Shown piece after piece: positions 15,612 to 33,715 of a DNA stretch of 46,005 nucleotides. The position numbers were made by a program, and so were the translations under genes. The stretch is from a virus. Location of the stretch: IMG/VR virus record IMGVR_UViG_3300033149_002637, positions 1 to 46,005 of that record; one strand, given 5' to 3'. Below the pieces are notes generated by a model that worked only from the letters and a program-made list of their open reading frames with translations, searched no databases and was not told where the DNA came from. The first letter of the stretch is position 1, and each line of letters opens with the position of its first letter.

Positions 15612-16445
15612 GTGATTCATAGAAGCATCATTTTTGCTGACATACATGTGGGCAGTACCTCCGCTTTATGGCCGCCTGAACAGCCATTAAGTGGTGGTGG
15701 GAGATATGTACTTAACAAGAAGCAGGAATTCCTTTTAAAGTGGTGGGGAGATGCCACACGTCAAATCAGGAGGTTGAAACCGGATGTAGTTGTGGTGCTA
15801 GGTGATGTTATACAGGGTAAAAGTACCCGCGATGGACAGCTAGTCACCAATCGAAGTGATATTCAAAGGAGTGCAGCCTTTAAGCTGATGAGTCCGATAA
15901 GAGAAAAAGCCCACAAGTTTTTCATGCTCAGGGGAACACCATGGCATGAGGGTAAGGCGTCTGAAGATTCCTATGACTTAGCAGAGATGTTACACGCTGA
16001 GATGTGTCCTGAAACTGATGAAAGGCTTTTTTGGGAACTTTTTCTACGGCTTCCAGGTGGGAGTAAACCCGTCTTACACTTTACACATCACATAGGAGCA
16101 ACAAAGGTTTCCTGGTATGAAGCTACTGTACCGCTGAGAGACACTTTAATGCTGCTTTCAGAATTAGGGCGTTGGTATAAGAAAGAAGCTCCTGATGTTC
16201 GCTTGACAGTTCGTGCACACAGACACCGCTGTATTGGTGTCTTTATTGCGCCTGACATTCAAGCGTGGACTGTTCCTGCATGGCAGATGAAAACAGCCTA
16301 TGCACATCAAAAAGCTATAGTTACACTGCCACACATCGGTTATCTGATAGTAGAATGGGACGGAGATGACATTGTAGTGAAACCACGTATGCGTCCAGTG
16401 CCACCACCCAACATTGTAGATTTTCAGCTCAAAGGTGAGGAGTAG
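15612..16445 (+). CDS. Calcineurin-like metallophosphoesterase
   Basis: 277 residues; GTG start after AAGGAG. Metal-binding motifs of the calcineurin-like superfamily are in order: FADIHVG (Asp10-x-His12), VVVVLGDVIQG (GDxxxxG), RGTPWHEGK in the place of the GNHE/D block, FTHHIG, and RAHRHR (GHxH equivalent). The usual Asn-His of GNH is replaced by Thr-Pro-Trp-His, so substrate range may be altered. Such phosphoesterases are recurrent next to terminases in some phages; candidate activities are nuclease or phosphodiesterase in packaging or DNA end processing, none demonstrated. Confidence 0.85.
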   Translation: MIHRSIIFADIHVGSTSALWPPEQPLSGGGRYVLNKKQEFLLKWWGDATRQIRRLKPDVVVVLGDVIQGKSTRDGQLVTNRSDIQRSAAFKLMSPIREKAHKFFMLRGTPWHEGKASEDSYDLAEMLHAEMCPETDERLFWELFLRLPGGSKPVLHFTHHIGATKVSWYEATVPLRDTLMLLSELGRWYKKEAPDVRLTVRAHRHRCIGVFIAPDIQAWTVPAWQMKTAYAHQKAIVTLPHIGYLIVEWDGDDIVVKPRMRPVPPPNIVDFQLKGEE

Positions 16446-16475
16446 AAAAGGTGTCTAGTAAGGATATTTACCACA

Positions 16476-17249
16476 ATGTGTGATGTGACAATTATCGTGC
16501 CGACGTATGACACACCTGACTTTTTGAAACAGTGTCTATCAGCTATAGAGCGTAATACAGTCGCGCCTTACAAGATATTTGTTGTAGACGATAAAAGTCC
16601 ATCACTTGAAATGCGCAACCTCTTGCGGAGCATCAAAAGCAGATGTAGTGTTGCCAAGTCACGCATTCGTCGTGGCTTTGCTGGTATTAACAACTGGGCA
16701 GTGTCTCATACGAACACCAAATATGTGTGCCTTTTGAATTCTGACACTGAGCCTGGTTACATGTGGCTGACTTATTTGCTTGAAGAGCTTGATAATCATG
16801 AAGACGTTGGAATAGTTGGTGCAAAACTGCTATACCCACCACAAAAGGGCTACAGTTTGGGGGGTAGCATCCAACATGCAGGAGTTGCTCGTAATAAAGA
16901 GGGATTGCCATATCACATCTATGGCGGGCAGCCTTCAGACTTTCCAGCCGCTAATGTTCGCAGGGAGTTAAATGCTGTCACATTTGCGTGTGCACTTATT
17001 CGACGCAAGTTATGGGACGAAGTGGGCGGTCTTGACGAAGGCTACGTTATGGGTCAGTTCGAGGACATAGATTTTTGCAATAAGACACGACGCGCCGGTT
17101 GGAAAATCATTTATCAACCGAAGGCAACGCTCTTACATTATGAGCATGGTTCAGGTGATGAGTTTGTTACTAAGCACAGTCTACACAATCGAGATCGACT
17201 TATGAGCATTTGGGGTAATCTTGGATCGGATGAACACCTATTTGTTTAG
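16476..17249 (+). CDS. Glycosyltransferase family 2 (rhamnosyltransferase-like)
   Basis: 257 residues. The GT-A fold signature is complete: VTIIVPTYDTPDFLKQCLSA at the start, IFVVDDKSPS near residue 35, LNSDTEP near residue 85 (the DxD-type sugar-nucleotide/metal site), GGLDEGYVMGQFEDIDFCNK with the ED acidic pair near 190, and a closing RAGWKIIYQPKATLLHYEHG. This is the layout of GT2 enzymes that add sugars to glycan chains. First gene of the sugar cassette, 30 bases after the phosphoesterase. Cytosolic, no membrane segment. Acceptor unknown. Confidence 0.93.
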   Translation: MCDVTIIVPTYDTPDFLKQCLSAIERNTVAPYKIFVVDDKSPSLEMRNLLRSIKSRCSVAKSRIRRGFAGINNWAVSHTNTKYVCLLNSDTEPGYMWLTYLLEELDNHEDVGIVGAKLLYPPQKGYSLGGSIQHAGVARNKEGLPYHIYGGQPSDFPAANVRRELNAVTFACALIRRKLWDEVGGLDEGYVMGQFEDIDFCNKTRRAGWKIIYQPKATLLHYEHGSGDEFVTKHSLHNRDRLMSIWGNLGSDEHLFV

Positions 17250-17257
17250 GGGGAAAA

Positions 17258-18145
17258 ATGTTTAAGTTCTCTGTGATTATTCCGACGTACAATAGAAGAG
17301 AAAACCTCTACTTGACGCTTTGTGCTCTTGATAAAACATTGCTGCATTACAAGCATCCTGTTGAAATCATTGTCATGGACGATGGGTCTACTGACAACTC
17401 ACTTGAGGTAATGCATGAGTTCAGAGACAGATTTGCATTGCAATACCGCTGGCAGCCACATGATGGTTTCGGCGTAACGTCAGCGCGTAATCGCGGGTGT
17501 GCTATTGCGCGTGGAAAGAACTTCCTGTTTGTGGATTCTGACATATTGCTAACACCGGAGTCACTCGCTCATTTAAGCAACATAGTCAATGCCAATCCAA
17601 GCGTTATCATCGCTGGTCGCTACGACTGGATGCTGCCAATGCACATACGTCCGTATGATGTTTACCACAACTGGGACAAGATAATTGCCGGCACACTTCC
17701 TTCGGCACAGTTTGGTGGTGATCCAAAGGGTATTATCGGTGTAGACCCTCGGTATAGAGAAAATCCTGAAGTGTTTGACAGGCGTATTATTCAAACAGAG
17801 TATGCTTCGAAATTATACAGTGGCGTCTTGATGTTTCCAAAGGAAATCTTCTGGGAACTTGGTGGTTACGATGAGAAAATTAGGGCGCATGGTGGCTCAG
17901 ACTGCGAGATGGGCATTCGTGCACAGCTGGCAGGTTACAAAGCAATTTTCACCAGCTTGGTACATGGCTACCACGTGTATCACGATAGAAATCAATCTGC
18001 ACATCGTACAAGTGTCAAAGCTAATGTTAAATACATAGCGTCGAAGCATAATCTGAACAAAGTTGGTTTGCACGTGTGGCATGTTGGTGACGATTATGGC
18101 ATTTGCGAAAAGGGACATAGTCCATTAGCGAGGGAAGAATTGTGA
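17258..18145 (+). CDS. Glycosyltransferase family 2 (galactosyltransferase-like), copy A
   Basis: 295 residues. FSVIIPTYNRRENLYLTLCA, then IIVMDDGSTDNS, then ARNRGCAIARGKNFLFVDSD (the Asp-Ser-Asp of DxD near residue 92), and a C-terminal GGYDEKIRAHGGSDCEMGIR block with an acidic Asp-Cys-Glu. This is the GT2 plus GT27-type C-terminal domain seen in chondroitin-polymerase-like enzymes. Strong resemblance to the next gene throughout, including a shared RYDW-LPMxI-P-DV-H-W segment in the middle, so the two arose by duplication. Starts at ATG 17258 after GGGGG. Confidence 0.92.
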   Translation: MFKFSVIIPTYNRRENLYLTLCALDKTLLHYKHPVEIIVMDDGSTDNSLEVMHEFRDRFALQYRWQPHDGFGVTSARNRGCAIARGKNFLFVDSDILLTPESLAHLSNIVNANPSVIIAGRYDWMLPMHIRPYDVYHNWDKIIAGTLPSAQFGGDPKGIIGVDPRYRENPEVFDRRIIQTEYASKLYSGVLMFPKEIFWELGGYDEKIRAHGGSDCEMGIRAQLAGYKAIFTSLVHGYHVYHDRNQSAHRTSVKANVKYIASKHNLNKVGLHVWHVGDDYGICEKGHSPLAREEL

Positions 18146-18963
18146 AAGCAGTATCGTTCTCCTTTGTCATCCCAACATATAATCGTAAGCGAAATGTCTC
18201 TCTACTACTGCATGCACTAACCCTTCAGACTGACCAAGATTTTGAAGTCATCATTTCTGACGACGGTAGTACAGATGGTACAGAGAAAATGCTTCAGGCA
18301 TTTAGAGGGCGTCTACGTCTCAAATACCTTTGGCGCGAGCACAATGGATATCGTGTAAGTTTAGCACGTAATGAGGGAACTCGTCATTCTGATTCAAGTT
18401 CTACCCACATTTGGTTTCTTGACAGCGACATTCTCTTGAATAAACACGCTGTTGAATCCGCGCGTGCCCTTTGCACTCGTGAGCCTGATGCCATCATATG
18501 TGGTCGTTACGATTGGCTGCCACCTATGAAGATTACACCACATGATGTAGAACATAGATGGAATGTACTAACAACTGGGCGTTTACAAAGGATTAGCGTT
18601 GATTATCCTCACGAAACTGGTGTACGACCAGATCACAGGGGTACTAAGTATAAAGACAAGGGGCTTTACTTTGACTGTAAAACGCGCCGTAAAAGTGGTG
18701 GCACTCTGAGTGGAAATCTAATTGTGCCTAAAATCTGGCTCGCGCGCGGTTTTGATGAAACTATACATGGACAGGGACAAGATGGAGAGTTTGGTCATCA
18801 CATAAGCGATACACTTGGTGCTGAGTGTATCTTCTGTGACAAGATTGTAGGCTATCACATGGCACATTTTTGTGACAATGAGTGGCGAACCTCGTCAGTA
18901 AAAAGAACCATACGTTATATTAATGCTAAATACAGATTGCATGACACGTCAGCAAAGTGGTGA
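18142..18963 (+). CDS. Glycosyltransferase family 2 (galactosyltransferase-like), copy B
   Basis: 273 residues; GTG start overlaps the preceding stop as GTGA. VSFSFVIPTYNRKRNVSLLL, VIISDDGSTDGTE, SLARNEGTRHSD and WFLDSDILL give the GT2 core; RYDWLPPMKITPHDVEHRW and HGQGQDGEFGHHI repeat features of copy A. The second acidic motif here is Gln-Asp-Gly-Glu instead of Ser-Asp-Cys-Glu. The pair are tandem paralogues that probably add two related sugars or act on two acceptors. The predicted protein ends before the coupled methyltransferase. Confidence 0.92.
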   Translation: MKAVSFSFVIPTYNRKRNVSLLLHALTLQTDQDFEVIISDDGSTDGTEKMLQAFRGRLRLKYLWREHNGYRVSLARNEGTRHSDSSSTHIWFLDSDILLNKHAVESARALCTREPDAIICGRYDWLPPMKITPHDVEHRWNVLTTGRLQRISVDYPHETGVRPDHRGTKYKDKGLYFDCKTRRKSGGTLSGNLIVPKIWLARGFDETIHGQGQDGEFGHHISDTLGAECIFCDKIVGYHMAHFCDNEWRTSSVKRTIRYINAKYRLHDTSAKW

Positions 18964-18967
18964 AACA

Positions 18968-19537
18968 ATGAAACTAGACCTCACACAGAAATTAGAGAAT
19001 CCCCAAAAGTCTTGGGATGATGATTGGGAAAGGATTTGGACGTTCTATTACTGGCGTCTTCACAGTAACTACCGTGCAATGGAGCCTTTTTTACACGCGC
19101 CTGTTTTGGATGTAGGCTGCGGGCCTGGTTTTCTATCTGCACGTGTTTTCCCAAACCTCAATTGGTATACAGGTATCGACATATCACCAAAAGCGCTTGA
19201 GTATGGTAGGTTCCTATTCCCAGGCGCTCGTTTTGTGCTTGGAGACGTAGAACACAATCCGCTTCCGTTTAATGATAATGAGTTTAAAACTGTGGTCTGC
19301 ATGGAGCTGATAGAACACATTCAGGAGCACAATGTGTTAGTACCTGAGATGGTACGAGTAAGTAATGAGTACATCGCTTTCACGGTGCCAATTTCTATGT
19401 CTGGCGTCGGGCATATCCATCCAGTTTGGTCTGCTAATGACGTGTATCGATTTGCTTCCAAGATGGGTACTGTGTTGGAGATACATAGTTATCACGAAAC
19501 AAATCACCATCTTGCTTGGGTGAGGGTGAACAAATGA
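18968..19537 (+). CDS. SAM-dependent methyltransferase (class I)
   Basis: 189 residues from ATG 18968, four bases after the previous stop (an in-frame ATG at 18923 inside the upstream gene is rejected). Motif I is VLDVGCGPG at residues 46-54, with the acidic end of strand 2 at GIDISPKALEY and motif III-like DVEHNPLPFNDNEF; then CMELIEHI. This is the small-molecule class (UbiE/Methyltransf_11 type). Within a sugar cassette it most likely methylates a sugar or glycan hydroxyl or carboxyl group, but the substrate cannot be read from the sequence. Confidence 0.9.
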   Translation: MKLDLTQKLENPQKSWDDDWERIWTFYYWRLHSNYRAMEPFLHAPVLDVGCGPGFLSARVFPNLNWYTGIDISPKALEYGRFLFPGARFVLGDVEHNPLPFNDNEFKTVVCMELIEHIQEHNVLVPEMVRVSNEYIAFTVPISMSGVGHIHPVWSANDVYRFASKMGTVLEIHSYHETNHHLAWVRVNK

Positions 19538-20241
19538 AGCACGCTTCTTTGTGTGTGTTATCATTCAATCGGAAGGAAGTGATGGAGAGAAGCTTAAAAA
19601 CTCTTCAAGCTAACACACGTTATCCATACGAGTTGATTATCCTAGATGATGGTAGCAACAGATTTACACAGGAGTATCTGTTCAAGGTTGTGAGAGCACA
19701 CGCAGCAGCTACTGTACTATTTAATACAGACCGAAATCTCGGCATTGGAATTGCAGTTAATCGTGGCTTTCAAATCGCGCGTGGCGATTATCTGTTCAAG
19801 CTGGATGCCGACCTAATGTATAAGTCAGGTTGGTTAACCGAGTCAGTGCGTTTGTTGGAACAGCATAGAGAAATTGGCTGCCTCGGCTTGTTCAAGTATT
19901 GGCACAAGCCACGTATCTTTTCGGAGAACATCATCAATACCTATGCTGATTACTATGAAGTAGTAGATTTTGTGGGTTCTGCAATCGGGATGCGTCGTGA
20001 AATCTATGAGCAGTTTGGTGCTTGGCATGAACAGACACATACATTTGGTGAGGACAAACAATTCAAGATGAAAGTGCAAGCTGGTGGCTTTCAACTAGTG
20101 CTACCAAAAAATGACCTTGCAGAGAACGTTGGCTTTGGCGAGTATAAAACATCACTAATCAAAGAGGTGCATATGGAAACCGGGAAGCATGTCTACAATG
20201 CACCATATAAGGAACCCCTCATATTCGGAAAGGTGCGGTAA
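19534..20241 (+). CDS. Glycosyltransferase family 2
   Basis: 235 residues; ATG at 19534 overlaps the methyltransferase stop as ATGA. ASLCVLSFNRKEVMERSL, LIILDDGSN, ARGDYLFKLDADLMYKSGW (DAD form of DxD) and FGEDKQFKMKVQAGGF near 180 (the ED motif) define a GT2 enzyme with a short C-terminal tail. It lacks the GT27-like extension of the two preceding enzymes and has no membrane anchor. Donor and acceptor unknown. Confidence 0.92.
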   Translation: MKHASLCVLSFNRKEVMERSLKTLQANTRYPYELIILDDGSNRFTQEYLFKVVRAHAAATVLFNTDRNLGIGIAVNRGFQIARGDYLFKLDADLMYKSGWLTESVRLLEQHREIGCLGLFKYWHKPRIFSENIINTYADYYEVVDFVGSAIGMRREIYEQFGAWHEQTHTFGEDKQFKMKVQAGGFQLVLPKNDLAENVGFGEYKTSLIKEVHMETGKHVYNAPYKEPLIFGKVR

Positions 20242-20243
20242 TC

Positions 20244-21254
20244 ATGACAGACCAGTATATGCAGAATTATGTGCGCCCAAAAGGTGAACCCCGCGTTGCA
20301 TTTGTCTCTCGCTGGTACTACATATGGCCCGCATGCGGCGAGCTTGCACATGCGTATAGAGAATGGGCTACTACAATGGTGTTACCATTTCCGATAAAGG
20401 AAAAAGGTGTGCCATTTCAAAAGACCTATGAGGACATGATTACTTACTTCGATCCCCAACTATTACATCTTGGCCCAACTTACTATGGGAGCAATTACAT
20501 CAGCTATGATTTTCTGAAACGTTTCAAAGATGCAAAACCCTACCGTAAGATTATAGCCACTCACGCTGAGACCACAGTAAAGGGCAATCGCATGAGAACG
20601 TTCACTGAATTGCCTAAACTGGTAGACATTGTGTACACTTGTAGTCCATCACTTGTGAGGACAATCAAAAAAGCGTCAGGCTGTGATAATGTCAGGTTCC
20701 TGCCAACTGCTGTTGACCATGAGGCATATCATCCAGTTAATGTGAAAAAGCAATTTGATCTACTTTTCTTGGGTTATCCTGGTGGGGCTAAGAAATCTAG
20801 GGACAAAGTAATAGTTCAACTAGATAGGGATTTTGCTGACCTTTGGGTTGGTGGAGCTTGGTGGGAGCCTTACAATCTACGCCACACTTTCCCTGGTGCA
20901 TTCAGATCGCATTTCAATGAATGGAACTCACGTGCTCGAATTGGATTGTGCTTGATACCCGATGAGCACAAGACACTTGAGCAATATTACACATACCGCT
21001 TGACAAACACTATGGCGACACAAACCTTTGCGATGACGAGCTACACACCTGGATTGGAGAAACTGTTCACCCGTAAGGTGCACCTTGATTGGTACGAAAC
21101 TTACGACGAATTGGTTGCATTACTTAAATACTGGTTGTCGCATGACAAGGAACGTGAGCAAGTGGCTCGTCAGGGTAGAGAACATGTTCTGAAGCATTTT
21201 ACTCTTAAACAGCAAACACGACAGCTTTTGATGGATGTAGGAATAACAGTATGA
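20244..21254 (+). CDS. CgeB-like / GT-B glycosyltransferase
   Basis: 336 residues. N-terminal Rossmann-like half includes VAFVSRWYYIWPACGELAHA and IATHAETTVKGN; a switch segment FLPTAVDHEAYHPV (near residue 155) is followed by the C-terminal half with FDLLFLGYPGGAKKSRDKVI, LCLIPDEHKTLEQYYTYRL, a TYRLTNTMATQTFAMTSYTP segment corresponding to the family's donor-binding region, and a C-terminal helix with REHVLKHFTLKQQT. This is the CgeB/Glyco_trans_1_2 type of GT-B enzyme. The preserved LP-x-A-V-D-x-E-x-Y-x-P switch supports function as a glycosyltransferase. Coupled by ATGA to the ATP-grasp gene. Confidence 0.85.
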   Translation: MTDQYMQNYVRPKGEPRVAFVSRWYYIWPACGELAHAYREWATTMVLPFPIKEKGVPFQKTYEDMITYFDPQLLHLGPTYYGSNYISYDFLKRFKDAKPYRKIIATHAETTVKGNRMRTFTELPKLVDIVYTCSPSLVRTIKKASGCDNVRFLPTAVDHEAYHPVNVKKQFDLLFLGYPGGAKKSRDKVIVQLDRDFADLWVGGAWWEPYNLRHTFPGAFRSHFNEWNSRARIGLCLIPDEHKTLEQYYTYRLTNTMATQTFAMTSYTPGLEKLFTRKVHLDWYETYDELVALLKYWLSHDKEREQVARQGREHVLKHFTLKQQTRQLLMDVGITV

Positions 21255-22243
21255 ACATTTTGGTTACTGGTATAGGTGGTGGTGTTGGACAGAGTATTGT
21301 CAAGAGCTTACAGGACACCGAACATACCATCATTGGTGTTGATAGCGAAGTATTAGGCGCTGGGGTTTATGCTGTTGCAAAAGCATATAAAGTGCCTTAC
21401 GCGAACGCGCCTGGCTACATAGATAAACTATTAGAAATCTGTGATAAAGAAGAATGTGACATGCTCTTCCCAGGTCTTGATGCTGAGCTGCTGATACTAT
21501 CAGAGAATGCGAAGATGTTTCAAGACATTGGTACTTTTGTTGTTGTAAGCTCACCAGATGTCATTAAGATTTGTGATGATAAATTGCGTACTTCTTGGTT
21601 CCTGTTAGAGCATGGGTTCTATGCTCCAGAAACTTGGTCGCTAACAGATTCTGCTGTTTCCTATTTGAAATTTCCTTTGGTATTGAAGCCAATGAGGGGT
21701 GGTGCACGCTCTAAGGGTGTGTACGTAGTTAGAGATTTTGCGGAACTTTCTTATAGGCTTGCTACAATAGATATGAATAACTATGTTAAGCAGGAGTACA
21801 TTGCTGGCGATGAGTATACCTGTGGAAGCATTACAATCAATGGACGCTGTAGTGGTACTATTGTGATGCGCCGCATACTACGAGATGGAGACACATACAA
21901 GGCTTTTGTTGTGGCAGATCAAAGAATACACGACTATGTATGTGCCGTTGCAGATGCTTTGAAACCACTTGGCCCTTGTAACTTTCAACTAAGAATGAAG
22001 GGCGATCAACCGTACATATTTGAAATTAACCCCAGATGTTCAGGGACTACATATTGCCGTGCTTTGGCTGGTTTCAATGAGCCTCTAATGACTGTAGATT
22101 ACTTTGAAAGTGGTAGCCTCCCAACATACAAGATACATGAGGCAACCTTTTTGCGTTACTGGTCAGAGTTGATGGTGGAAAATATTCGTGTTGACACGTT
22201 TCGAGAGTGGGGCGTGTTGAAGAACTATGATGGAAGGTTATAG
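21251..22243 (+). CDS. ATP-grasp enzyme, carbamoyl-phosphate-synthase-like
   Basis: 330 residues. A Rossmann-type start (ILVTGIGGGVGQSIVKSL, FPGLDAELLIL) precedes the ATP-grasp: KFPLVLKPMRGGARSKGVY supplies the lysine that holds the ATP phosphates, YVKQEYIAGDEYTCGSI the adenine pocket, and FEINPRCSGTTYCRA the magnesium-binding Glu and Asn. Family members ligate a carboxylate to an amine or thiol. In an amino-sugar cassette it may amidate or acylate a sugar or peptide (inference). Start overlaps the CgeB-like gene; ends before an epimerase. Confidence 0.9.
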   Translation: MNILVTGIGGGVGQSIVKSLQDTEHTIIGVDSEVLGAGVYAVAKAYKVPYANAPGYIDKLLEICDKEECDMLFPGLDAELLILSENAKMFQDIGTFVVVSSPDVIKICDDKLRTSWFLLEHGFYAPETWSLTDSAVSYLKFPLVLKPMRGGARSKGVYVVRDFAELSYRLATIDMNNYVKQEYIAGDEYTCGSITINGRCSGTIVMRRILRDGDTYKAFVVADQRIHDYVCAVADALKPLGPCNFQLRMKGDQPYIFEINPRCSGTTYCRALAGFNEPLMTVDYFESGSLPTYKIHEATFLRYWSELMVENIRVDTFREWGVLKNYDGRL

Positions 22244-22256
22244 TGGGGGTTGTTTG

Positions 22257-23171
22257 ATGAATGTTGTGGTTACAGGGGCTACGGGCTTTATTGGGCTTCA
22301 TTTGGTGAAATCTTTGCTGCTGAATGGCCATGAAGTTACTGCTGTGCTGCATGAACGCAATATACCAGCATATATGATGACGGATGCGTTGCATGTAGTT
22401 TGGGGCGACCTAGAGCGTCTTGAATCTGTGCACGATGCTGTGGCGCACTCAGATGTGGTTTGTCACCTTGCTGGTTTTATACCACCAAAAATGCAATCTG
22501 CATGGTATGCCAAGGAGTGCTTGCTTTATAATAGTCTATTCACACTTGAGGTAGCTAAGTTTGCTAGTGAAAATGCTACTCGCTTTATTTTACTATCATC
22601 AGGACAGATTTATAAATATTCAGCAACACCAGTTTCAGAGGATGCTCCTGTGCACCCTGTCGAGTATGGTGCATATTATCTTGCAAGTAAATTGCTCAGT
22701 GAGCTCTACGTTGAGCATTTGCAATTCGAGCGTGCACTGCCTACGTGTATACTGCGCATAGGAAACTGCTATGGCCCTGGTATGAAGGCCAGCTCGGTTG
22801 TGTCTTATTTCATGCAATGTGCTGCTGCTGGTCAACCATTAACTGTTTTCTATAATGGAACGCCGACACATGACTTTGTGTACGTGGATGATGTTGCTGA
22901 TGCTATTGTATCAGCAGTGCAATCTGGGGTGGTGGGTATTTATAACATTGGTTCTGGTTGTGCTACGTCCTTACAGGAGTTGGCTGAAACAGTTGTGGAG
23001 GTGTATTCAGATAAAGACATTTCCGTTGAAGTTGATTCTACAGATGCACATGTGTCTAAGGGTTTTTCAGCATTGTCGATTGAGAAAGCGCGTAGGGAGT
23101 TGGATTATTCTCCTCGGTCATTGAAGGATGGGCTATCTCTGTATCGACGGCAGTTGGAGAGAAACACGTGA
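22257..23171 (+). CDS. NAD-dependent sugar epimerase/dehydratase (extended SDR)
   Basis: 304 residues from ATG 22257. The cofactor site is GATGFIG at residues 7-13, the DL of GDLERLES and HLAGF follow, and the active-site YxxxK is Tyr141-Leu-Ala-Ser-Lys145, with the catalytic serine in ILLSSGQ upstream. RIGNCYGPG, HDFVYVDDVADAIV and YNIGSG complete the extended SDR pattern of NDP-sugar 4-epimerases and 4,6-dehydratases. It would supply a modified NDP-sugar to the glycosyltransferases. Which reaction is catalysed cannot be settled from motifs. Overlaps the aminotransferase by four bases (GTGA). Confidence 0.93.
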   Translation: MNVVVTGATGFIGLHLVKSLLLNGHEVTAVLHERNIPAYMMTDALHVVWGDLERLESVHDAVAHSDVVCHLAGFIPPKMQSAWYAKECLLYNSLFTLEVAKFASENATRFILLSSGQIYKYSATPVSEDAPVHPVEYGAYYLASKLLSELYVEHLQFERALPTCILRIGNCYGPGMKASSVVSYFMQCAAAGQPLTVFYNGTPTHDFVYVDDVADAIVSAVQSGVVGIYNIGSGCATSLQELAETVVEVYSDKDISVEVDSTDAHVSKGFSALSIEKARRELDYSPRSLKDGLSLYRRQLERNT

Positions 23172-24328
23172 GAAACCTTGCAGTCTTCGGTGGACAGCCT
23201 ACATTTAAAGAGCCTTTGCACGTAGGGCGTCCTAATCTTGCGCGAACATCTGAACTCATAAGCGCATTCAGGGGAATACTTGAGAGCAAATGGCTCACCA
23301 ATGATGGTTGGTGGGTTCATGCACTGGAGGGTGAGATTAGACGTTATCTGAATGTGAAGCACTGTGTTGTTGTGGCCAACGGAACGCTTGGCCTTGAAAT
23401 AGCAGCTAAGGCACTTATGCCAAAGTGTGGGGAAGTCATCATGCCTTCGTTCACATTCGCAGCAACGCCACATGCGCTTGCTTGGCAAAGATATAAGCCC
23501 GTTTTTGCTGATATTAATCCAACGACTCATGTTCTCGATCCGGTTGATGTAGAATCTCGAATCACTGATGCCACTGTTGGTATCCTTGGTGTACACACAT
23601 GGGGAACCCCATGCGAGATAGAGGCACTGACTGCGATTGCTGTGAGGCATAGCCTGCCACTCTTTTTCGACGCTGCACATGCGTTTGGATGCAAATATAG
23701 AAATCGCAGCATTGGTAACTTTGGACGGTGTGAGGTGTTCTCTTTTCATGCCACAAAGTTCTTTAACACTGTTGAAGGTGGTGCAATCACGACGAATGAT
23801 TACCAACTGGCTAAAAGACTTCGAGAACTGCGGAACTTTGGCTTCGTTGGTGATGGGACGCACACAACAACAGGTATTGGTATTAATGCTAAAATGAGTG
23901 AGTTACATGCTGCTGTTGGAGTGATGAATCTTGCAGAGATTACGTCGTTCGTCGATCGTAACTTTGTGAACTATGTGAATTATAAATATAATTTAACGAA
24001 TTGTGATTTGCAGGTTTACCAGCAAGAAGGTGGAAATTATCAATACGTGGTTGTTGAGTTGTTGAGCAATGCACTATCAGCGGATGTTTTAGTCAAAGTG
24101 CTACAAGCCGAGAACATCATGGCACGCCGTTACTTTTCACCACCTTGCCATAAGATGACTCCTTATAATCAGGAGGGGAGTTATTTGCCAAACACTGAAA
24201 CTGTCTCGAATCGTGTTTTCGTTCTCCCAACTGGCATGTCGGTTAGACAGCAAGATGTGGATAAGGTTTGTGAGATTATCCTTTATTGCATTGAACACGC
24301 GGGGGAGATTATGGAGAAAGTGATATGA
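23168..24328 (+). CDS. DegT/DnrJ/EryC1-type sugar aminotransferase (PLP)
   Basis: 386 residues, GTG start. Pyridoxal phosphate lysine is Lys197 in FHATKFFNTVEGG; the cofactor Asp is in FFDAAHAFG; NGTLGLEIAAKAL near residue 68 binds the phosphate, and FGGQPTF plus LTNDGWWVHALE open the fold as in the DegT/StrS family. These enzymes make NDP-amino-sugars from 3- or 4-keto-sugars, using an epimerase/dehydratase product like that of the previous gene. The pair together imply an amino sugar. It ends by overlapping the portal gene by four bases (ATGA), the clearest sign that the sugar genes are co-translated with capsid genes. Confidence 0.95.
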   Translation: MRNLAVFGGQPTFKEPLHVGRPNLARTSELISAFRGILESKWLTNDGWWVHALEGEIRRYLNVKHCVVVANGTLGLEIAAKALMPKCGEVIMPSFTFAATPHALAWQRYKPVFADINPTTHVLDPVDVESRITDATVGILGVHTWGTPCEIEALTAIAVRHSLPLFFDAAHAFGCKYRNRSIGNFGRCEVFSFHATKFFNTVEGGAITTNDYQLAKRLRELRNFGFVGDGTHTTTGIGINAKMSELHAAVGVMNLAEITSFVDRNFVNYVNYKYNLTNCDLQVYQQEGGNYQYVVVELLSNALSADVLVKVLQAENIMARRYFSPPCHKMTPYNQEGSYLPNTETVSNRVFVLPTGMSVRQQDVDKVCEIILYCIEHAGEIMEKVI

Positions 24329-25752
24329 TAGATGCACCCAAGAAGGCTAGCTTTGTTGGACGTGTTGTGACGCGCATTCGAAGGCTTCTAGCTTCACCGC
24401 TTGTTCCTGAGTCACAGCCCACAAGTGCCATTGGCGTTGTTGATGACACATTAGATAGACTTTCAAATCTCTTCATGAACATCTCGACCAAGAGAATTAA
24501 TGTCTACATTGACGTGGAGGAAATGGACGAGACTGTTGATGAAGTGACAGCAGCCCTTGACATCATGGCTGATAACGCTGTGAACTCAGAGGAAGGTGCA
24601 GGTCACTCATTTGTCCTGCATTACGTCAACGTGCCAGATACCCTAAAAAACAACATCGAACTGATGTTGAAGAAAACTAGATGGGCAGAGAAGGCATACT
24701 CATTTGCTAGACAGACTCTCAAATATGGTGACTGTTTTGTGCAGTATGTCTTTGACAAGCAATTCAACATCGTGCGCCTGATGGATATGCCTGCAAGTAC
24801 TATGAAACGATACGAAGATGCGCAAGGTCTGCTGTTGAATGGTAATAAGCAGGGCGAGGCTGCTTTTGAGCAGTGGATTAATGGTGGTATGAGATTCGTT
24901 GCTGGTTTTTATCCATGGCAGATAGAACACATGCGTTGGAACCGTGCAGGTAGTTCAAAGTATGGAACTTCTTTACTCTATACGGCTCGCACTGCATGGA
25001 AGAAGTTACAGGCGATGGAAGAGGCATTGGTCATCAATTGGCTCACTCGTGCTTTTGCTCGTCTTCTCTTTATCATTGACACAACTGGTAAAGGGCCACT
25101 TGAGTCTCAGAAGGCCATTGCGGATTTTAAGAGAACGCTGAAGACGCGCCAAGTTGCTACTGATACAAAGGGCGCACAGCAAATTTCCGTTGTAAAAGAC
25201 ATCTACATTGCCAAGTCACACCGAGAGATGGGTGGTCGTGTTCAAGAAGGTTTAACCGATGTTAAGGTACTCGATACTAGCAATACTGGTTTCTGGAACC
25301 TGTCAGCGATTGAATACTATCAGAACAAAATAATTACATCGCTGAAAGTTCCAAAAGCACATCTTGGTATTGAGCGTGACATCAATGCCAAAGCTACTTT
25401 GCAGCAACAAGATCGTCGGTTTGCACGTTCTGTTAGACGTGTACAATCTATGTTGAGTCAATCAATTCGACATACAATTACATTGCAGTTGTTGATGTGG
25501 GGACTTGATCCTACTGATGTTGAGTACAGAGTTGTTTGGCCCGCTCCCAGTTGGGAAGATGAACAGGAGAAAAGTATAACAACGAAAAACTACATTGATG
25601 CTGCTGCGGTTGCACTGAAGCTGGGATTGGTTGACCACAACTACGTCCGTCAAAATTGGCTAAGCATGTCACAGAAACAGTTGAAGGAACTTGAGGGAAT
25701 AGAGAATAACGTCGAACCAACACAGACACCAGAATCAGATAATGAGGAGTGA
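24325..25752 (+). CDS. Portal protein (T4 gp20-like)
   Basis: 475 residues, coupled to the aminotransferase. The N-terminal region has ISTKRINVYIDVEEMDETVD and VTAALDIMADNAVN, the block that opens gp20-type portals, followed by SAYSFARQTLKYGDCFVQYV-like strands, FYPWQIEHMRWN, SSKYGTSLLYTARTAWKKL (the helical clip region with a conserved YG-S), and a C-terminal helix with an acidic tail. The portal is the dodecameric ring at the unique capsid vertex through which DNA enters and leaves. Position before the protease and capsid genes is as expected. Confidence 0.82.
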   Translation: MIDAPKKASFVGRVVTRIRRLLASPLVPESQPTSAIGVVDDTLDRLSNLFMNISTKRINVYIDVEEMDETVDEVTAALDIMADNAVNSEEGAGHSFVLHYVNVPDTLKNNIELMLKKTRWAEKAYSFARQTLKYGDCFVQYVFDKQFNIVRLMDMPASTMKRYEDAQGLLLNGNKQGEAAFEQWINGGMRFVAGFYPWQIEHMRWNRAGSSKYGTSLLYTARTAWKKLQAMEEALVINWLTRAFARLLFIIDTTGKGPLESQKAIADFKRTLKTRQVATDTKGAQQISVVKDIYIAKSHREMGGRVQEGLTDVKVLDTSNTGFWNLSAIEYYQNKIITSLKVPKAHLGIERDINAKATLQQQDRRFARSVRRVQSMLSQSIRHTITLQLLMWGLDPTDVEYRVVWPAPSWEDEQEKSITTKNYIDAAAVALKLGLVDHNYVRQNWLSMSQKQLKELEGIENNVEPTQTPESDNEE

Positions 25753-27395: not shown

Positions 27396-28574
27396 ATGGC
27401 AAATATTATAATGCCACTTGGTACAACTTATGAGGACTATCAAGCTGCACAGGAAGCGTATGTTGATTCACTGATTGATAAGTGGGAGTTTTTCTTAGGG
27501 GAAGGTACTAAGAAGCATCCTCTTAAACCAATTCCTAGAAATCTGTGGCGTGCAATGGCTATCATCTTTGAGAATCAGTCCATTGCGAGCACCAGGGGTG
27601 CGATGTCTGAGCAAACTTTGACAACGGATGTTACGCTTCCTGTCAAGTATGCTCTGCCCATTGTACGAGATGTGTTCCCACAGCTTATTATTTCTAAGAT
27701 TGCATCCATTCAGCCTCTACCAATGAGTTCTGGTGGGACTGGACAGGTGTTCTATCTCGACTTTCTTAGGGAAGATGTGACGCCTAACACTAATGTTACG
27801 AGTCAAGATAGCGACTACGCATTCTCTCTTGAGAATGAGGTACCTCGCAGGCTTAAGATGACCGTTGAGGCAGAAACTCTAACAGCTACAAAGGACATTC
27901 TTGCTGCAACTTGGTCTACTGAAGTTCAGGAAGATGCCCGTGGTGCTATTGGTCTTAATGTTCCTGCTGAATTGGTATCTGCTTGCGGTAGCGAAATTCT
28001 CCGAGAGCTTGAACAAAGAATGCTCAACGAAATTCTTGCTGGTGCAGGTGCAGGTAATGTTAATTGGAGTTGGACTGTTCCGACTGGTTACACCACTAAG
28101 GAATGGTACGAGACTTTGCATCACGCTTTCATCGACGCACAAGCCCTGATCTATAACAATAGATACCGTAATGCCGACTGGATTATCTGCGGCGTTAATC
28201 TTGCGGGTTATGTTATGAAGGGTGCAGACTTTACACCTCTTGAGCGTATGGTTCCACCTGGGCCGCAGCTTTCCGGTGTGAGACTTATTGGCACAAAGAC
28301 GGGCTTCTGGGACATCTACATGACCCCATATATCAACACCAACAAAGCAATCATGGGCACATATCCAAGGAGCACTATCGATACTGGTTATGTGTTTGCT
28401 CCATACATCCCACTTGCTGCAATGCCACTTGTGTATGCAGACTTCCGTGAGCGTGGTCATGCGCGAGAGGGTGCTTATGAGAATAAAGACAAATGGTCGA
28501 GAAATGTACGCACAAGAAACGCAAAAATGATGGTGGTATCGTCTATGTACGCTACAATCACCATTTCTGCATAG
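27396..28574 (+). CDS. Major capsid protein (T4 gp23-like, HK97 fold)
   Basis: 392 residues, with an AAGGAG ribosome site. Conserved blocks: LPIVRDVFPQLIISKIASIQ followed by PLPMSSGGTGQVFYLDF near residue 90-115, which is the E-loop/N-arm region of gp23-type capsid proteins; then LEQRMLNEILAGAGAGNVNW, NADWIICGVNLAGYVM, and a C-terminal WDIYMTPYINTNKAIMGTYP typical of the A-domain. Position after the scaffold and before head-tail genes agrees. Forms the icosahedral shell. Good candidate for the protein that the adjacent glycosyltransferases modify. Confidence 0.85.
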   Translation: MANIIMPLGTTYEDYQAAQEAYVDSLIDKWEFFLGEGTKKHPLKPIPRNLWRAMAIIFENQSIASTRGAMSEQTLTTDVTLPVKYALPIVRDVFPQLIISKIASIQPLPMSSGGTGQVFYLDFLREDVTPNTNVTSQDSDYAFSLENEVPRRLKMTVEAETLTATKDILAATWSTEVQEDARGAIGLNVPAELVSACGSEILRELEQRMLNEILAGAGAGNVNWSWTVPTGYTTKEWYETLHHAFIDAQALIYNNRYRNADWIICGVNLAGYVMKGADFTPLERMVPPGPQLSGVRLIGTKTGFWDIYMTPYINTNKAIMGTYPRSTIDTGYVFAPYIPLAAMPLVYADFRERGHAREGAYENKDKWSRNVRTRNAKMMVVSSMYATITISA

Positions 28575-28608: not shown

Positions 28609-30471
28609 ATGCGAGTACGGAACACTACTGCTATAACGCAAATAGCACCTGGTGGGAGCCGTTTAGACCCAGCAGTTTGGTTAGCGGTTCCCACGCAGGT
28701 ATCCTACGCAGATGCAATTTGGATGCTTACTCGACGCATGGCGGATATTAATGAAGTAGAAGACAGTGAAGATTTACTGTGGAAACAGGGCAATCAAACT
28801 CATCTTTATTGGCTTTCACCATTTTCAATGGGAGATGGTTATGGTACTGCTGCTGAGAACATGATTCTGGCTCTAACAAAGTTGGGCGTTAACTTGTTTG
28901 TGCGTCAGTGTTGGTTCCTAGATAGAACAGCATTAGATGACATTACCCGTGCAAAGCTCAACGAGCATATAACCGAACTTTATCGTGTCGGTATTTGTAT
29001 GGCAACGCCGGGTGAGTTCATAAAGTTGCCTACGGCTTTTAGGATTGGCTTTACGATGTATGAATCAAGTGAGCCACTTAAAATCCATCCTGAGTGGCGA
29101 CATGATTGCTACAATGTTGATATGCTTGTAGTCCCTAGTGAATTCAGCAAGGAAGCATTTAGTAGTTTTGTGGACGTTCCAATTGAAGTTTGTCCACTTG
29201 CACTTAATGAGTTATACATTAAGCCAACACGCAGGAAACCAAAAGCAGATGGAAGTTTCAAGTTCGTTTGTTATGGCACATTAACTGGGAGAAAAGCACC
29301 TCTTGAGCTTATGGAGGTTTTCACACGTGCCTTTCCAATTAAACAGTATCCAAACGTGCGAATGGAATTCAAAACGCGCCTTGGGATATTTGGTTGGGGC
29401 GAAAATATGCTGCCCGACATTACAGACCCTCGTGTGGTTATTCATAATGGTGATTGGTTCCCGAATCAAATGCTGGCGTGGTTACTTGATGCAGATGCAA
29501 TGGTTTTCCCATCAAAGGGAGAAGGTTATGCGCTACCTCCACGAGAAGCAATGGCTACGGGCTTACCAACTATCTTTGCTGCGAATACTGGAATGCTTGA
29601 CTTTGTAAATGATAAGTATAATTGGTCTGTTCCTACGCATCACACTGAGGATTCGCCACTTGGAGGTGTTTGGCATATTCCAGATTGGGACAATCTGGCT
29701 GATGTAATGCTTAACGTTTATCACAATCAGAAGAAATCATTTGATAAAGCATATCGTGGAGCAAAGTGGTATGCTTCTGAATTTGGCCCACAGAATGCTG
29801 CAAAGAGGTTGGTATCTATCGTAAATAATCTTGATCCATCTACGAGTAGTGTGCGCCGACTACGGAAGCCTAGTGAGTTGCATATTGATGAGCATCAGCC
29901 ATTTATAGACCTTTTGCAGCGCAACTTAGCACCTAACTCTGTGATTTGGGATATTGGTTTAGGCTCACAGAAAATTCATAGAAGGCTTCGTGATCTAGGC
30001 TTTCAAGTATACGCTCTGGTTGACGACAGTGATGACGTTGACACGTCTGGCGTAGAGATGCACGCCGCGTGTAATCTTATGAGTGAACAGCGGGATGGTT
30101 TAATTCGTTTTGGTTTGCCAGCAGCAGATGCTTGTATTTTCTGCTGTAATCTACAAAGGTTCAGCGCAGAGGAAATACGAGTTCTTTTGCTTAAAGCCCT
30201 TGATTTCTCCAATACGCCTGGTTCTTCAAAGAGCGGCAAGGTCTTCTTCAATGTGCCTTCTGTGTACTTTCCACAGTTTTATGATAAGCGTTCGTCTTTG
30301 ATGCGGGAAACACAATGGCGCAGGATATTGAAGCGGTTTGTTTACAAATTAACTCCGTATGGTGAAGACAAGCGCTTCTTCATGTTCAGTGTACTTGGAG
30401 AGGACAACAGTTCCGCAGCCTTTTACGTGCGTAATCTAGGTAGGGTATTGCAAGGAGTTTGGCACGCATGA
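28609..30471 (+). CDS. GT4 glycosyltransferase fused to a methyltransferase-like domain
   Basis: 620 residues. Residues about 65-400 are a GT-B/GT4 enzyme: LYWLSPFSMGDGYGTAAENM, VVPSEFSKEAFSSFV, FVCYGTLTGRKAPLELMEVF (donor-binding G-x-R-K), and MVFPSKGEGYALPPREAMAT with the family's E-x7-E pair (GEGYALPPREAMA). Residues about 420-620 include NSVIWDIGLGSQKIHRRLRD, which resembles a degenerate SAM motif I (DIGLGSG-like), and a C-terminal GEDKRFFMFSVLGEDNS. The function of the second half is uncertain because no other SAM motif is clear. Located between the major capsid protein and head-tail genes, and coupled to another GT2. Confidence 0.78.
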   Translation: MRVRNTTAITQIAPGGSRLDPAVWLAVPTQVSYADAIWMLTRRMADINEVEDSEDLLWKQGNQTHLYWLSPFSMGDGYGTAAENMILALTKLGVNLFVRQCWFLDRTALDDITRAKLNEHITELYRVGICMATPGEFIKLPTAFRIGFTMYESSEPLKIHPEWRHDCYNVDMLVVPSEFSKEAFSSFVDVPIEVCPLALNELYIKPTRRKPKADGSFKFVCYGTLTGRKAPLELMEVFTRAFPIKQYPNVRMEFKTRLGIFGWGENMLPDITDPRVVIHNGDWFPNQMLAWLLDADAMVFPSKGEGYALPPREAMATGLPTIFAANTGMLDFVNDKYNWSVPTHHTEDSPLGGVWHIPDWDNLADVMLNVYHNQKKSFDKAYRGAKWYASEFGPQNAAKRLVSIVNNLDPSTSSVRRLRKPSELHIDEHQPFIDLLQRNLAPNSVIWDIGLGSQKIHRRLRDLGFQVYALVDDSDDVDTSGVEMHAACNLMSEQRDGLIRFGLPAADACIFCCNLQRFSAEEIRVLLLKALDFSNTPGSSKSGKVFFNVPSVYFPQFYDKRSSLMRETQWRRILKRFVYKLTPYGEDKRFFMFSVLGEDNSSAAFYVRNLGRVLQGVWHA

Positions 30472-31049
30472 GTACTGAAAGGATTCATGACTCTAGCTTG
30501 CACATGCTTGTAAAGGATGAGATTGACCTTTTACCGCGCTTGCTAGAATACATCAATGAATGGGTTGATGAAATTATCATTGTGGATACCGGTTCAACTG
30601 ATGGTACTCTTGATCTGGTAAGGAAGTATACACCAAACGTTTTTCAAATGCCACTTAATCGTAACTTTAGTGCTGCACGTAATTTTGGTTTATCAAAAGC
30701 AACGAAGAGCTGGATTTTTCATTTGGACGCTGATGAGCGTCCGACGGAATCCCTTCTGCTATGGTTAACACGTTTTGTTGGGCGTAGAGCGAGTACATTA
30801 TATGATGGAGTATCTATACACAGACACAATCTTGTAGGTGGCAATCCAATAGGGCGTGCAACGCATGAAAGACATGTACGATTTTTTCGCAATACAGCGT
30901 GGTATAGATTTGAAGGTCTTGTGCATGAGCACATTAATGTGCCAGAAGCTTTGGTATTGGATGCTCCACGTGAACTGCTGATTGAGCATTATAAAACTGT
31001 GGAACGTCAGAATATGCAAAATGCTTTTTACGAAACCTTGAAGGAGTGA
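30468..31049 (+). CDS. Glycosyltransferase family 2 (SunS/WaaE-like)
   Basis: 193 residues from ATG 30468, which overlaps the stop of the previous gene as ATGA. HMLVKDEIDLLPRLLEYINE, EIIIVDTGSTDGTLDLVRKY and FHLDADERPTESLLLW show the GT2 core with DAD as the DxD; FEGLVHEHI is the family's motif near the end. Short relative to usual GT2 enzymes (about 240 residues), ending in a plain helix (MQNAFYETLKE). Related enzymes add sugars to lipopolysaccharide cores or, in SunS, to cysteine of a peptide. Together with the fusion upstream it forms a second, capsid-proximal glycosylation pair. Confidence 0.88.
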   Translation: MSTERIHDSSLHMLVKDEIDLLPRLLEYINEWVDEIIIVDTGSTDGTLDLVRKYTPNVFQMPLNRNFSAARNFGLSKATKSWIFHLDADERPTESLLLWLTRFVGRRASTLYDGVSIHRHNLVGGNPIGRATHERHVRFFRNTAWYRFEGLVHEHINVPEALVLDAPRELLIEHYKTVERQNMQNAFYETLKE

Positions 31050-31054
31050 ATGAC

Positions 31055-31165
31055 ATGGCGAAGAAGAAGAAGAGACCATGCCCTGGTAGTAAAATCAGGA
31101 GTAATGGTAAGGGTCGAGGTCGTGGAGTAGGAAAGGGTAAAGGGCCAATAGGTCGTCACAAGTAA
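31055..31165 (+). CDS. 36-residue strongly basic protein
   Basis: Too short for standard gene finding. ATG at 31055 is eight bases after AAGGAG, whose last bases overlap the stop of the GT2 gene; stop at 31163. The product begins AKKKKRPCPGSKIRSNGKGR and ends GVGKGKGPIGRHK: 14 of 36 residues are Lys or Arg, with many glycines and one cysteine. It has the look of a DNA-condensing, minor head or decoration peptide, or a ribosomal-protein-like tail. Also could be a target for glycosylation at its Cys or Ser (speculative). Confidence 0.7.
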   Translation: MAKKKKRPCPGSKIRSNGKGRGRGVGKGKGPIGRHK

Positions 31166-31183: not shown

Positions 31184-31876
31184 ATGTTGTTAACCGAGAT
31201 TACTCAAAGGTTTAACGATATGATTACAACTGAGGTGGTAGCAGCAGACCGTTTAAACAGGTTTATATCCGCTGCTGTAGACTACTACAGTCGATATAAC
31301 CCCATCATAACTGCTATGACTATTGATGTAGTTGAAGATCAAACCCTATACGACTTGCCATCTGATTGCACAACCGTCATTAGTTGTTACTGGTGGCCTT
31401 TGGGCGAATTATTTGCAGAGTTGCGTGCAGGTGCAGAGCAGACTTTTATGCTACATAGACCAGCACGCTATCATCTAATCTCTGAGCGTATTATAGATGA
31501 CATCACTCAGGGTGCATATCTTGAGCGTGTGGTAGGTTACTGGGAGCAAAGGAACAAGCAAATATATGTTGCACCTGAACCAACTGTTGCTGATGAAGAC
31601 GGTTTGGTATTGTTATACGCTGCAAAACACAGCCTAAATGCTGATGGCACCGGTTATGACAACATCCCTGATGAGGACTTAGGTATTTTCACCGATCTAG
31701 TGCTTGCAGAGTTCCTGGGGAGTAAGAGTGCTGAAGTGGCCTGGGAGCCTGACTATTCGGAGGGACAGTCTCGTGTTGCCAAGCACTTTATACCAAAACA
31801 GTTGCGTGAGCACATTACGGCGCTACGCAACGGGGTGCGTGACAAATACAGTGCAGTGGGAATCGCGGTGGGATAA
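31184..31876 (+). CDS. Head-tail connector / adaptor-like protein
   Basis: 230 residues. Begins LLTEITQRFNDMITTEVVAA then DRLNRFISAAVDYYSRYNPI, an N-terminal pair of helices resembling the adaptor (gp6/gp15-like) that docks beneath the portal, followed by a beta-rich middle (LYDLPSDCTTVISCYWWPLG) and a C-terminal helix (REHITALRNGVRDKYSAVG). Position after capsid and before tail genes fits a head completion role. No diagnostic motif; call by layout and size. Confidence 0.6.
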   Translation: MLLTEITQRFNDMITTEVVAADRLNRFISAAVDYYSRYNPIITAMTIDVVEDQTLYDLPSDCTTVISCYWWPLGELFAELRAGAEQTFMLHRPARYHLISERIIDDITQGAYLERVVGYWEQRNKQIYVAPEPTVADEDGLVLLYAAKHSLNADGTGYDNIPDEDLGIFTDLVLAEFLGSKSAEVAWEPDYSEGQSRVAKHFIPKQLREHITALRNGVRDKYSAVGIAVG

Positions 31877-32950: not shown

Positions 32951-33715
32951 GTGGGAGCATTCATCGACTTGACTGGCAATCGCTACGGAAGGTGGATGGT
33001 ATTAGAGCGCACTGGGAATGATAAACGGGGACGTGCACGCTGGCTGTGCCGTTGTGATTGTGGAAATGAAAAGATTGTAGCTGGCGCAAGTCTTCGGTCG
33101 GGTGCTTCTAGGAGTTGTGGATGCCTACAGAAAGAGCGAGCAAGTCGGGCGGGCTTCGTTGATTTGACAGGACATAGGTATGGAAGATTAACTGTCGTCA
33201 AAAGGATGGCTTCAAATAAACATGGTCAGACCACTTGGCTGTGCAAATGCAATTGCGGGAACGAGGTCATCGTTCTTAGCAACAATCTGCGTAGTGGAAA
33301 TACTAAGAGTTGTGGTTGTTTGAACAAGGAACGTGTGAGAGAAGCACATCTGTTACCTGAAGGTGTTGCTGCGTTCAATGAGTTGTTCACTAGAATGCAA
33401 CGTAATGCCGAGGAGCGTAATCTTGAATGGCAACTAACCAGAGAACAAGTTCGTTATCTTACCAAACAATCCTGCTATTACTGCGGCGCAGAGCCTTCAA
33501 AGGTATCACACAGACCTCAGTTCAATGGAACTTACGTTTATAACGGTATAGATCGTGTTGACAATGCCAAGGGTTACACAGTAGACAATGTTGTTCCTTG
33601 TTGTGAACATTGTAATTATGCCAAACGGACTAGAAGCGTCGAACAATTCAGAGACTGGGTTATAAAAGTTTATGAACATTTCGCTGTCGGCGAGGTGTTC
33701 ACCACTAAAGGATAG
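32951..33715 (+). CDS. HNH homing-type endonuclease with duplicated N-terminal Zn/AP2-like repeats
   Basis: 254 residues, GTG start. Two tandem copies of one module occupy residues about 4-68 and 69-132: each reads F-x-DLTG-x-RYGR-x-x-V-x-x-R, then WLC-x-CxCGNE, then LRSG-x-x-x-SCGCL, i.e. four cysteines per copy. The HNH nuclease follows: SCYYCGAEPS, NGIDRVDNAKGY and NVVPCCEHCNYAK hold the His/Asn-type catalytic region with Cys-x2-Cys zinc pairs. Such free-standing HNH genes are mobile intruders in phage late operons; the duplicated DNA-binding module could give longer target recognition. It separates the tail-completion gene from the tail tube gene. Confidence 0.9.
   Translation: MGAFIDLTGNRYGRWMVLERTGNDKRGRARWLCRCDCGNEKIVAGASLRSGASRSCGCLQKERASRAGFVDLTGHRYGRLTVVKRMASNKHGQTTWLCKCNCGNEVIVLSNNLRSGNTKSCGCLNKERVREAHLLPEGVAAFNELFTRMQRNAEERNLEWQLTREQVRYLTKQSCYYCGAEPSKVSHRPQFNGTYVYNGIDRVDNAKGYTVDNVVPCCEHCNYAKRTRSVEQFRDWVIKVYEHFAVGEVFTTKG

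Follow-up and report, generated by a model that had tools for sequence, protein, structure and literature searches.

A capsid-adjacent glycosyltransferase with a methyltransferase-fold domain is a core head gene in an uncultivated lineage of tailed phages

The window considered here is a virus record of 46,005 bases, analyzed whole (IMG/VR record IMGVR_UViG_3300033149_002637), and our subject is a pair of glycosyltransferase genes directly behind its gene for the major capsid protein. The capsid gene (27396..28574; 392 amino acids) is of the Gp23 type (Pfam PF07068, E 1.3e-24; PHROG 138). Its stop is separated by 34 nucleotides from the ATG of a 620-residue enzyme of glycosyltransferase family 4 (GT4; 28609..30471, from open reading frame (ORF) reading). 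The gene that follows encodes a family 2 glycosyltransferase of 193 amino acids (GT2; 30468..31049; Pfam PF00535, 1.7e-16) and its ATG overlaps the GT4 stop as ATGA; the ORF lister offers an alternative TTG start at 30459, which would give 196 amino acids. Next comes a basic peptide, also from ORF reading, of 36 amino acids from its ATG (31055..31165) or 39 if read from a GTG, and an SU10-like head-tail adaptor (31184..31876; PF24175, E 2.4e-8) closes the head interval. These five genes run in one direction on the + strand with almost no gaps. Pfam and PHROGs agree on the GT4, the GT2, the capsid, the adaptor and a Gp20-type portal protein (24325..25752, + strand; PF07230, 7.8e-31). The original prediction, made from the letters alone, had described the enzymes, their coupling and the 36-residue peptide in the same way, and these ORFs and junctions are confirmed.

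The arrangement is constant among relatives. IMG/VR was scanned with the capsid, which gave 47 distinct contigs with capsids of 44-87% identity; 29 loci with capsids at 35% or less were taken separately as an outgroup. Four of the 47 contigs end within the capsid gene. In all 43 that extend beyond it, GT4 is the head gene that follows, recognized in 42 by the GT4 profile and in one (L015, with 163 nucleotides left) by the N-terminal domain at E 1.4e-13. Duplicates are likely among the 47 (L009 and L010, L012 and L021, and L043 and L044 are alike), so the independent cases are fewer than those counted. By comparison, a GT4 match was found in none of the 29 distant capsid loci, and in the 24 of these with 1 kb or more of sequence after the capsid neither GT4 nor GT2 was found downstream by its own profile. 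The distances between GT4 sequences also track those between capsids: the Mantel correlation is 0.62 for the N-terminal, 0.48 for the catalytic and 0.54 for the C-terminal domain (19 taxa; reached in 0 of 999 permutations). Over whole ORFs r was 0.82 against the adaptor and 0.76 against the capsid, a comparison that gave the lower values just cited when redone by domain. Because of the linkage in 43 of 43 contigs and the distances that follow the capsid, we regard GT4 as a core head gene of this uncultivated tailed-phage lineage.

The GT2 gene is less constant. It is present in 25 of the 33 contigs that extend beyond GT4 (in some it is cut by the contig end) and missing in eight (L020, L032, L034, L041, L042, L043, L044, and L047). 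Since GT4 is lineage-wide and GT2 is not, the predicted glycosylation pair is better described as one fixed enzyme with a frequent but dispensable partner. The short peptide can be aligned by eye with a peptide at the equivalent place in L003; in L019 another highly basic ORF, of 65 amino acids (6753-6950), replaces it between GT2 and the adaptor.

The lineage has no close relatives among 50,697 phage records, where all capsid matches are below 60% identity (the best listed is about 26%) and GT4 matches are at about 22-27%. Profile scans of genome contigs with the GT4 and capsid alignments, which might have found prophage or host copies, returned zero relatives. Further downstream in the window is a tape-measure gene, and no tail sheath was recognized in the scans made of the window's proteins. 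The phage is therefore predicted to be long-tailed, probably a siphovirus.

The boundary between capsid and GT4 is a recurrent insertion site. In 4 of the 43 contigs an endonuclease-like ORF of 128-157 codons lies between the two genes. Judged by eye, these ORFs are of two unrelated kinds, which we take from their motifs to be HNH (L002, 7593-7979; L005, 4324-4797) and LAGLIDADG (L045, 1279-1740; L070, 5943-6407). A separate family of about 250-290 amino acids, also HNH-like by eye, occurs at varying head and tail sites (window, 32951-33715; L002, 2431-3225 and 9881-10630; L004, 1774-2652), once between GT4 and GT2; its members are 54-56% identical and probably mobile endonucleases.

Two apparent departures from the common gene structure were rejected. 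One, not accepted as biology, is a 968-codon ORF in L018 (5226-8132) that joins capsid and GT4. The L015 contig of the same metagenome keeps the 3′ end of the capsid gene intact, with a stop, and starts GT4 separately. The identity of the two contigs jumps at the junction, from 85% upstream to 100% over 119 nucleotides downstream; the likeliest source of the fusion is thus a chimeric assembly or a deletion. The other is the split GT4 of L045 (413 and 182 amino acids), which is a frame-shifted and shortened copy rather than two genes. Variation was also seen beyond GT4. Of the 33 contigs that reach the end of GT4, 32 have the C-terminal domain, out of frame in L045. It is missing in L020 (3721-5681), where two short ORFs come after GT4 and resemble, by eye, decayed GT2s that no longer have DxD. 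In L038 (8908-14996) the interval from GT4 to the adaptor is widened by a GT2-methyltransferase, a radical SAM/SPASM protein (PF04055, 1.6e-18) and several unknown genes.

The GT4 enzyme has three domains, all conserved across the 28 homologous sequences of our alignment (A3). A model of the whole protein made from these sequences with AlphaFold2 has a mean predicted local distance difference test score (pLDDT) of 87.8 and a predicted template-modelling score of 0.87. The catalytic part (residues 61-415; 28789..29853) matches Pfam PF13692 (1.2e-8) and PF00534 (4.7e-8), both above cut-off, and PHROG 2170. Residues from about 61 to 412 form the double Rossmann fold known as GT-B, and GT4 enzymes match it best in VIA: 3oy2 with Z 30.4 (root-mean-square deviation (rmsd) 3.3, 327 residues aligned) and BshA with 29.7, ranks within 1 being ties. 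E305-x7-E313, R228 and K229 are invariant in all 28 homologues; we take the E-x7-E and the basic donor-phosphate residues to be the hallmark of the family. Both the fold with its Glycos_transf_1 profile and the catalytic residues thus place the enzyme in GT4.

In front of the catalytic domain stands a small domain of strands and helices (residues 1-60; 28609..28788), delimited from the model and a profile search, with a conserved VRNxTG...LxPGxW..VP. It appears to be private to these enzymes. Pfam searched up to E 10 with three N-terminal stretches gave no match, and PHROGs searched up to E 10 with five gave a single weak one, for the window's stretch (phrog_21516, E 0.032, function unknown). 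A profile search found no convincing other carrier among the ORFs of the loci read. Mean pairwise identity is highest for the catalytic domain (0.53), then the N-terminal (0.40) and the C-terminal (0.30). The ratio of nonsynonymous to synonymous substitution (dN/dS) is 0.05-0.19 where calculable, synonymous distances being saturated for many pairs. All GT4 domains are under purifying selection, and with three domains conserved in 28 homologues and such ratios, the arrangement is not a product of chance.

The C-terminal domain (residues 421-600, with a conserved tail; 29869..30471) was predicted to make the enzyme a fusion of GT4 and a methyltransferase-like part, and modeling bears this out. 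Modeled alone from the 28 sequences it has a pLDDT of 89.8. Nearly all of its Foldseek matches, with E down to 1e-7, are methyltransferases, and so are nearly all of the 50 VIA rows shown, with Z of 13.9-15.2 (the best at rmsd 3.1 over 159 residues). The matches include TamK and RdmB, which are methyltransferase-fold proteins under other names. We are therefore confident that the modeled domain has the seven-strand, Rossmann-like fold of class I S-adenosylmethionine (SAM) methyltransferases; the nonenzymatic fold that had been considered as an alternative outcome did not emerge. The window's domain sequence matched no family in Pfam or NCBIfam. Among the domains of the 28 homologues, with E up to 0.1, Methyltransf_25 was found in 11, MetW in 9 and CpaM in 11.

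Whether the domain still methylates is another matter. The degenerate motif I that had been noticed in the window, DIGLGS (residues 448-453), is real: compared with D/E-x-G-x-G-x-G, DIGLGSQ lacks the third glycine, which is also absent in the nearest three relatives (L001-L003). The degeneracy does not extend to the lineage, where D-x-G-x-G-x-G is intact in 18 of the 28 homologues. The motif is altered in other ways in L008, L009, L017, L018, and L026, and in L038 the segment is lost. We call the window's domain methyltransferase-like, not a methyltransferase, as SAM binding by this copy appears doubtful. Even so, H429 and P550 are kept in all 28 sequences, including those where the SAM motif is gone, and purifying selection acts on the domain in the degenerate clade as well (dN/dS 0.086 between L001 and L002, the window's own pairs being saturated).

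The GT2 partner points to protein as a substrate. Its D40, D87, and D89 are invariant in the 15 sequences of alignment A4. When the protein alone was compared with all PDB sequences by phmmer, the top match was GmaR (E 5.1e-19 over residues 12-176), followed by SunS (1.7e-6); with a GT2 profile the values were 2.8e-29 and about 1e-17. The control GT2s, three of the four in a sugar gene block upstream of the portal (all but that at 18142), matched chondroitin synthase first. The closest kin among solved GT2s are thus of a protein-glycosylating group: GmaR is the Listeria flagellin O-GlcNAc transferase and SunS a peptide S-glycosyltransferase. The glycosyltransferase domain of GmaR transfers N-acetylglucosamine (GlcNAc) onto flagellin, and the protein has C-terminal tetratricopeptide repeat (TPR) and antirepressor domains (PMC9638930). 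The window's enzyme ends after 193 amino acids, a bare catalytic domain partnered with GT4, and is not GmaR proper. Since its NCBIfam matches (SunS 6.4e-9; TIGR04283 5.4e-9) are all far below cut-offs, the relation is one of kinship, not membership. At E 1e-5 relatives of the GT2 occur in only 10 of the 50,697 phage records. Three of these records (OR848533.1, OR847070.1, and OR848573.1), short, unannotated and filed as Listeria phages, hold a relative at 30% identity that is possibly host GmaR DNA.

The partner varies in form as well as in presence. In L002 an HNH gene separates it from GT4. In L018, L038, L123, and L124 it is longer (350-399 amino acids), and in the three of these that were scanned (L018, L038, L124; L123 was classed by length) it has a Pfam methyltransferase domain. 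Motif I of GT4 is intact in none of these four lineages: it is non-intact in 4 of 4 with a long GT2 against 8 of 26 others (the 28 rows of A3 with L123 and L124 added; Fisher p 0.018, ignoring kinship). The methylating activity may have shifted between the two enzymes. This stays a suggestion, because the four may represent one event and because the window's clade, whose GT2 has no methyltransferase domain, does not fit.

The upstream sugar block (15612..24328, + strand, from library matches) comprises ten genes over 8.7 kb between terminase and portal: a phosphoesterase-like protein, four GT2s, a methyltransferase, a GT-B enzyme, a PylC-like ATP-grasp protein, an NAD-dependent epimerase/dehydratase and a DesI-like aminotransferase. 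Its gene content possibly specifies the phage's own deoxyamino-sugar pathway, and it may supply donors without being constant in the lineage. TerL adjoins the portal in 10 of the 11 records that show both, and only the window has the block. This sample is biased: loci were trimmed to 6-8 kb from the match, and a locus with a block would not show its TerL. In several loci where TerL is not seen, relatives of block genes do lie ahead of the portal. GT4 is kept in nine of the ten block-less records, which are all nine that run past the capsid, and it is therefore independent of the block. An N6/N4 DNA methyltransferase gene lies on the minus strand of the window (285-1154; PF01555, 1.5e-43).

Phage capsid glycosylation is known from a few mycobacteriophages. 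Freeman and colleagues reportedly described, in 2023, virion glycosylation involving Che8 gp108-110 and Corndog gp38. In Che8, phage-encoded glycosyltransferases modify the major capsid protein (PMC11256854, PMC12363180). The Che8 genes lie near the right end of that genome, outside the head operon, whereas the window's enzymes are encoded within theirs. Homology went undetected by hhalign, with probabilities of 1-5% for GT4 and GT2 (gp110 1.4%, gp109 5.0%, gp108 3.4%). The window's arrangement is best called a variant of that kind of virion glycosylation, resembling it in working without being a member of the Che8 system.

Likenesses to GT4 alone are wider. The enzymes 3oy2 (chlorovirus B736L), BshA, MshA, SdgB, and TarM share the GT-B fold (Z 24-30 over residues from about 61 to 412), the E-x7-E and the R-K, at about 10-18% identity, but the window's enzyme adds the N-terminal domain and the fused methyltransferase-fold domain. 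In Arthrobacter phage KellEzio, gp28 is a GT4 relative in the morphogenesis operon, four genes past the capsid and adjoining the tail terminator. It is not capsid-adjacent, and the match to it (22.7% identity) spans residues 59-403, short of the methyltransferase-fold domain. The relatives in Rhodococcus phage Trina and Streptomyces phage Annadreamy adjoin genes for ribonucleotide reductase, and the stretch read has no annotated capsid gene near them. No paper describing a glycosyltransferase constantly placed after a capsid gene appeared in search listings and the beginnings of abstracts, which cover few subscription journals.

We consider it somewhat probable that the two genes form a module dedicated to glycosylating a head protein, in which GT4 is the core head-operon gene and the capsid the best candidate acceptor. 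Lying in the capsid gene cluster, the module is probably co-transcribed with the capsid gene. GT4 would most likely attach or extend a sugar on a head protein while capsid subunits are being made, and the Gp23-type capsid protein, being abundant, is the best candidate to receive it. The private N-terminal domain may dock the enzyme on its substrate. The C-terminal domain would methylate the sugar in lineages with an intact SAM motif, and may have turned into a binding or positioning domain in the window's clade. The GmaR/SunS-like GT2, in most relatives, would add another sugar. A head protein had been proposed as acceptor from proximity; the constant capsid linkage and the kinship of the GT2 with protein glycosyltransferases strengthen the proposal, in which the acceptor is still a matter of inference. 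Some GT4 protein transferases prime on proteins, and SdgB is among the fold matches. As GT4 is invariant and occurs without GT2, it may itself prime, although it is GT2 whose relatives prime on proteins.

Several points weigh against this view. Position in an operon is no proof of an acceptor, and by fold GT4 is akin to enzymes whose acceptors are small molecules, lipids and polymers, with no particular tie to proteins. With 8 of 33 contigs lacking GT2, protein priming cannot always depend on it, and GmaR itself has TPR and antirepressor domains that this GT2 has not. Ten of the 28 aligned homologues, the window among them, have no intact motif I, so methylation may not occur in this phage. 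Finally, that the acceptor is a protein and that it is the capsid, the order of addition and the methylation are inferred, whereas the predicted fold, the catalytic residues, the linkage to this capsid and the purifying selection were observed.

Among the alternatives, the enzymes might modify a host surface polysaccharide and so block superinfection, their place in the head operon serving only to have them expressed late. The neighbors of the GT4 fold include the lipopolysaccharide and cell-wall enzymes WaaG and TarM, such a role has been proposed for other phage glycosyltransferases (PMC7029224, PMC10202952), and the window has a separate large sugar block. We find this rather unlikely: host-surface traits usually vary with the host, so that adjacency to one capsid type in every contig would be unexpected, and the GT2 is closest among solved structures to protein-modifying enzymes. 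Alternatively, GT4 could be a co-opted enzyme whose chief part is structural or in assembly, decorating or chaperoning the head, with catalysis secondary. The invariant position and co-inheritance with head genes would suit such a factor, as would the private N-terminal domain, the retention of H429 and P550 where the SAM motif is gone and purifying selection on every domain. But the GT-B catalytic residues are all invariant and no part is better conserved than GT-B, which fits an enzyme and makes a chiefly structural role quite improbable.

Still less probable is that the acceptor is another virion protein, such as the tail tube, adaptor or fiber. Both capsid and tail tube bear glycans in mycobacteriophages (PMC12619734, PMC12363180), and the GT4 distances follow the adaptor at least as well as the capsid, but GT4 stands immediately after the capsid gene and, in the loci read, was seen with no other capsid type. 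Glycosylation of hypermodified phage DNA is just as improbable: phage glycosyltransferases that hypermodify DNA are known, reportedly through work of Pyle and colleagues in 2024, but the GT2 is kin to protein transferases, and the thymidylate-synthase family PF00303, used for hydroxymethylated bases and the one base-modifier family covered, was found in none of eight related records, possibly fragments.

A bolder form of the head-glycosylation reading is doubtful. A methyl-capped glycan made by the capsid-adjacent enzyme would replace a protein decoration or cement layer, GT4 would be an obligate factor of head maturation and the methyltransferase activity would have moved between GT4 and GT2 partners. 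If true, the phage head would be a glycoprotein shell by design.

In closing, the Che8 enzymes lie outside the head genes. In the present lineage the three-domain glycosyltransferase is no less constant than the capsid gene, and this speaks for a core function in the head and not for an accessory trait. With the closest annotated phage capsids about 26% identical, the lineage is without a close cultured member in that collection. The genes concerned are two or three, small and soluble, and stand beside their supposed substrate, so that capsid glycosylation during tailed-phage assembly becomes testable in E. coli. The arrangement suggests that the phages of this group sugar-coat their own heads.

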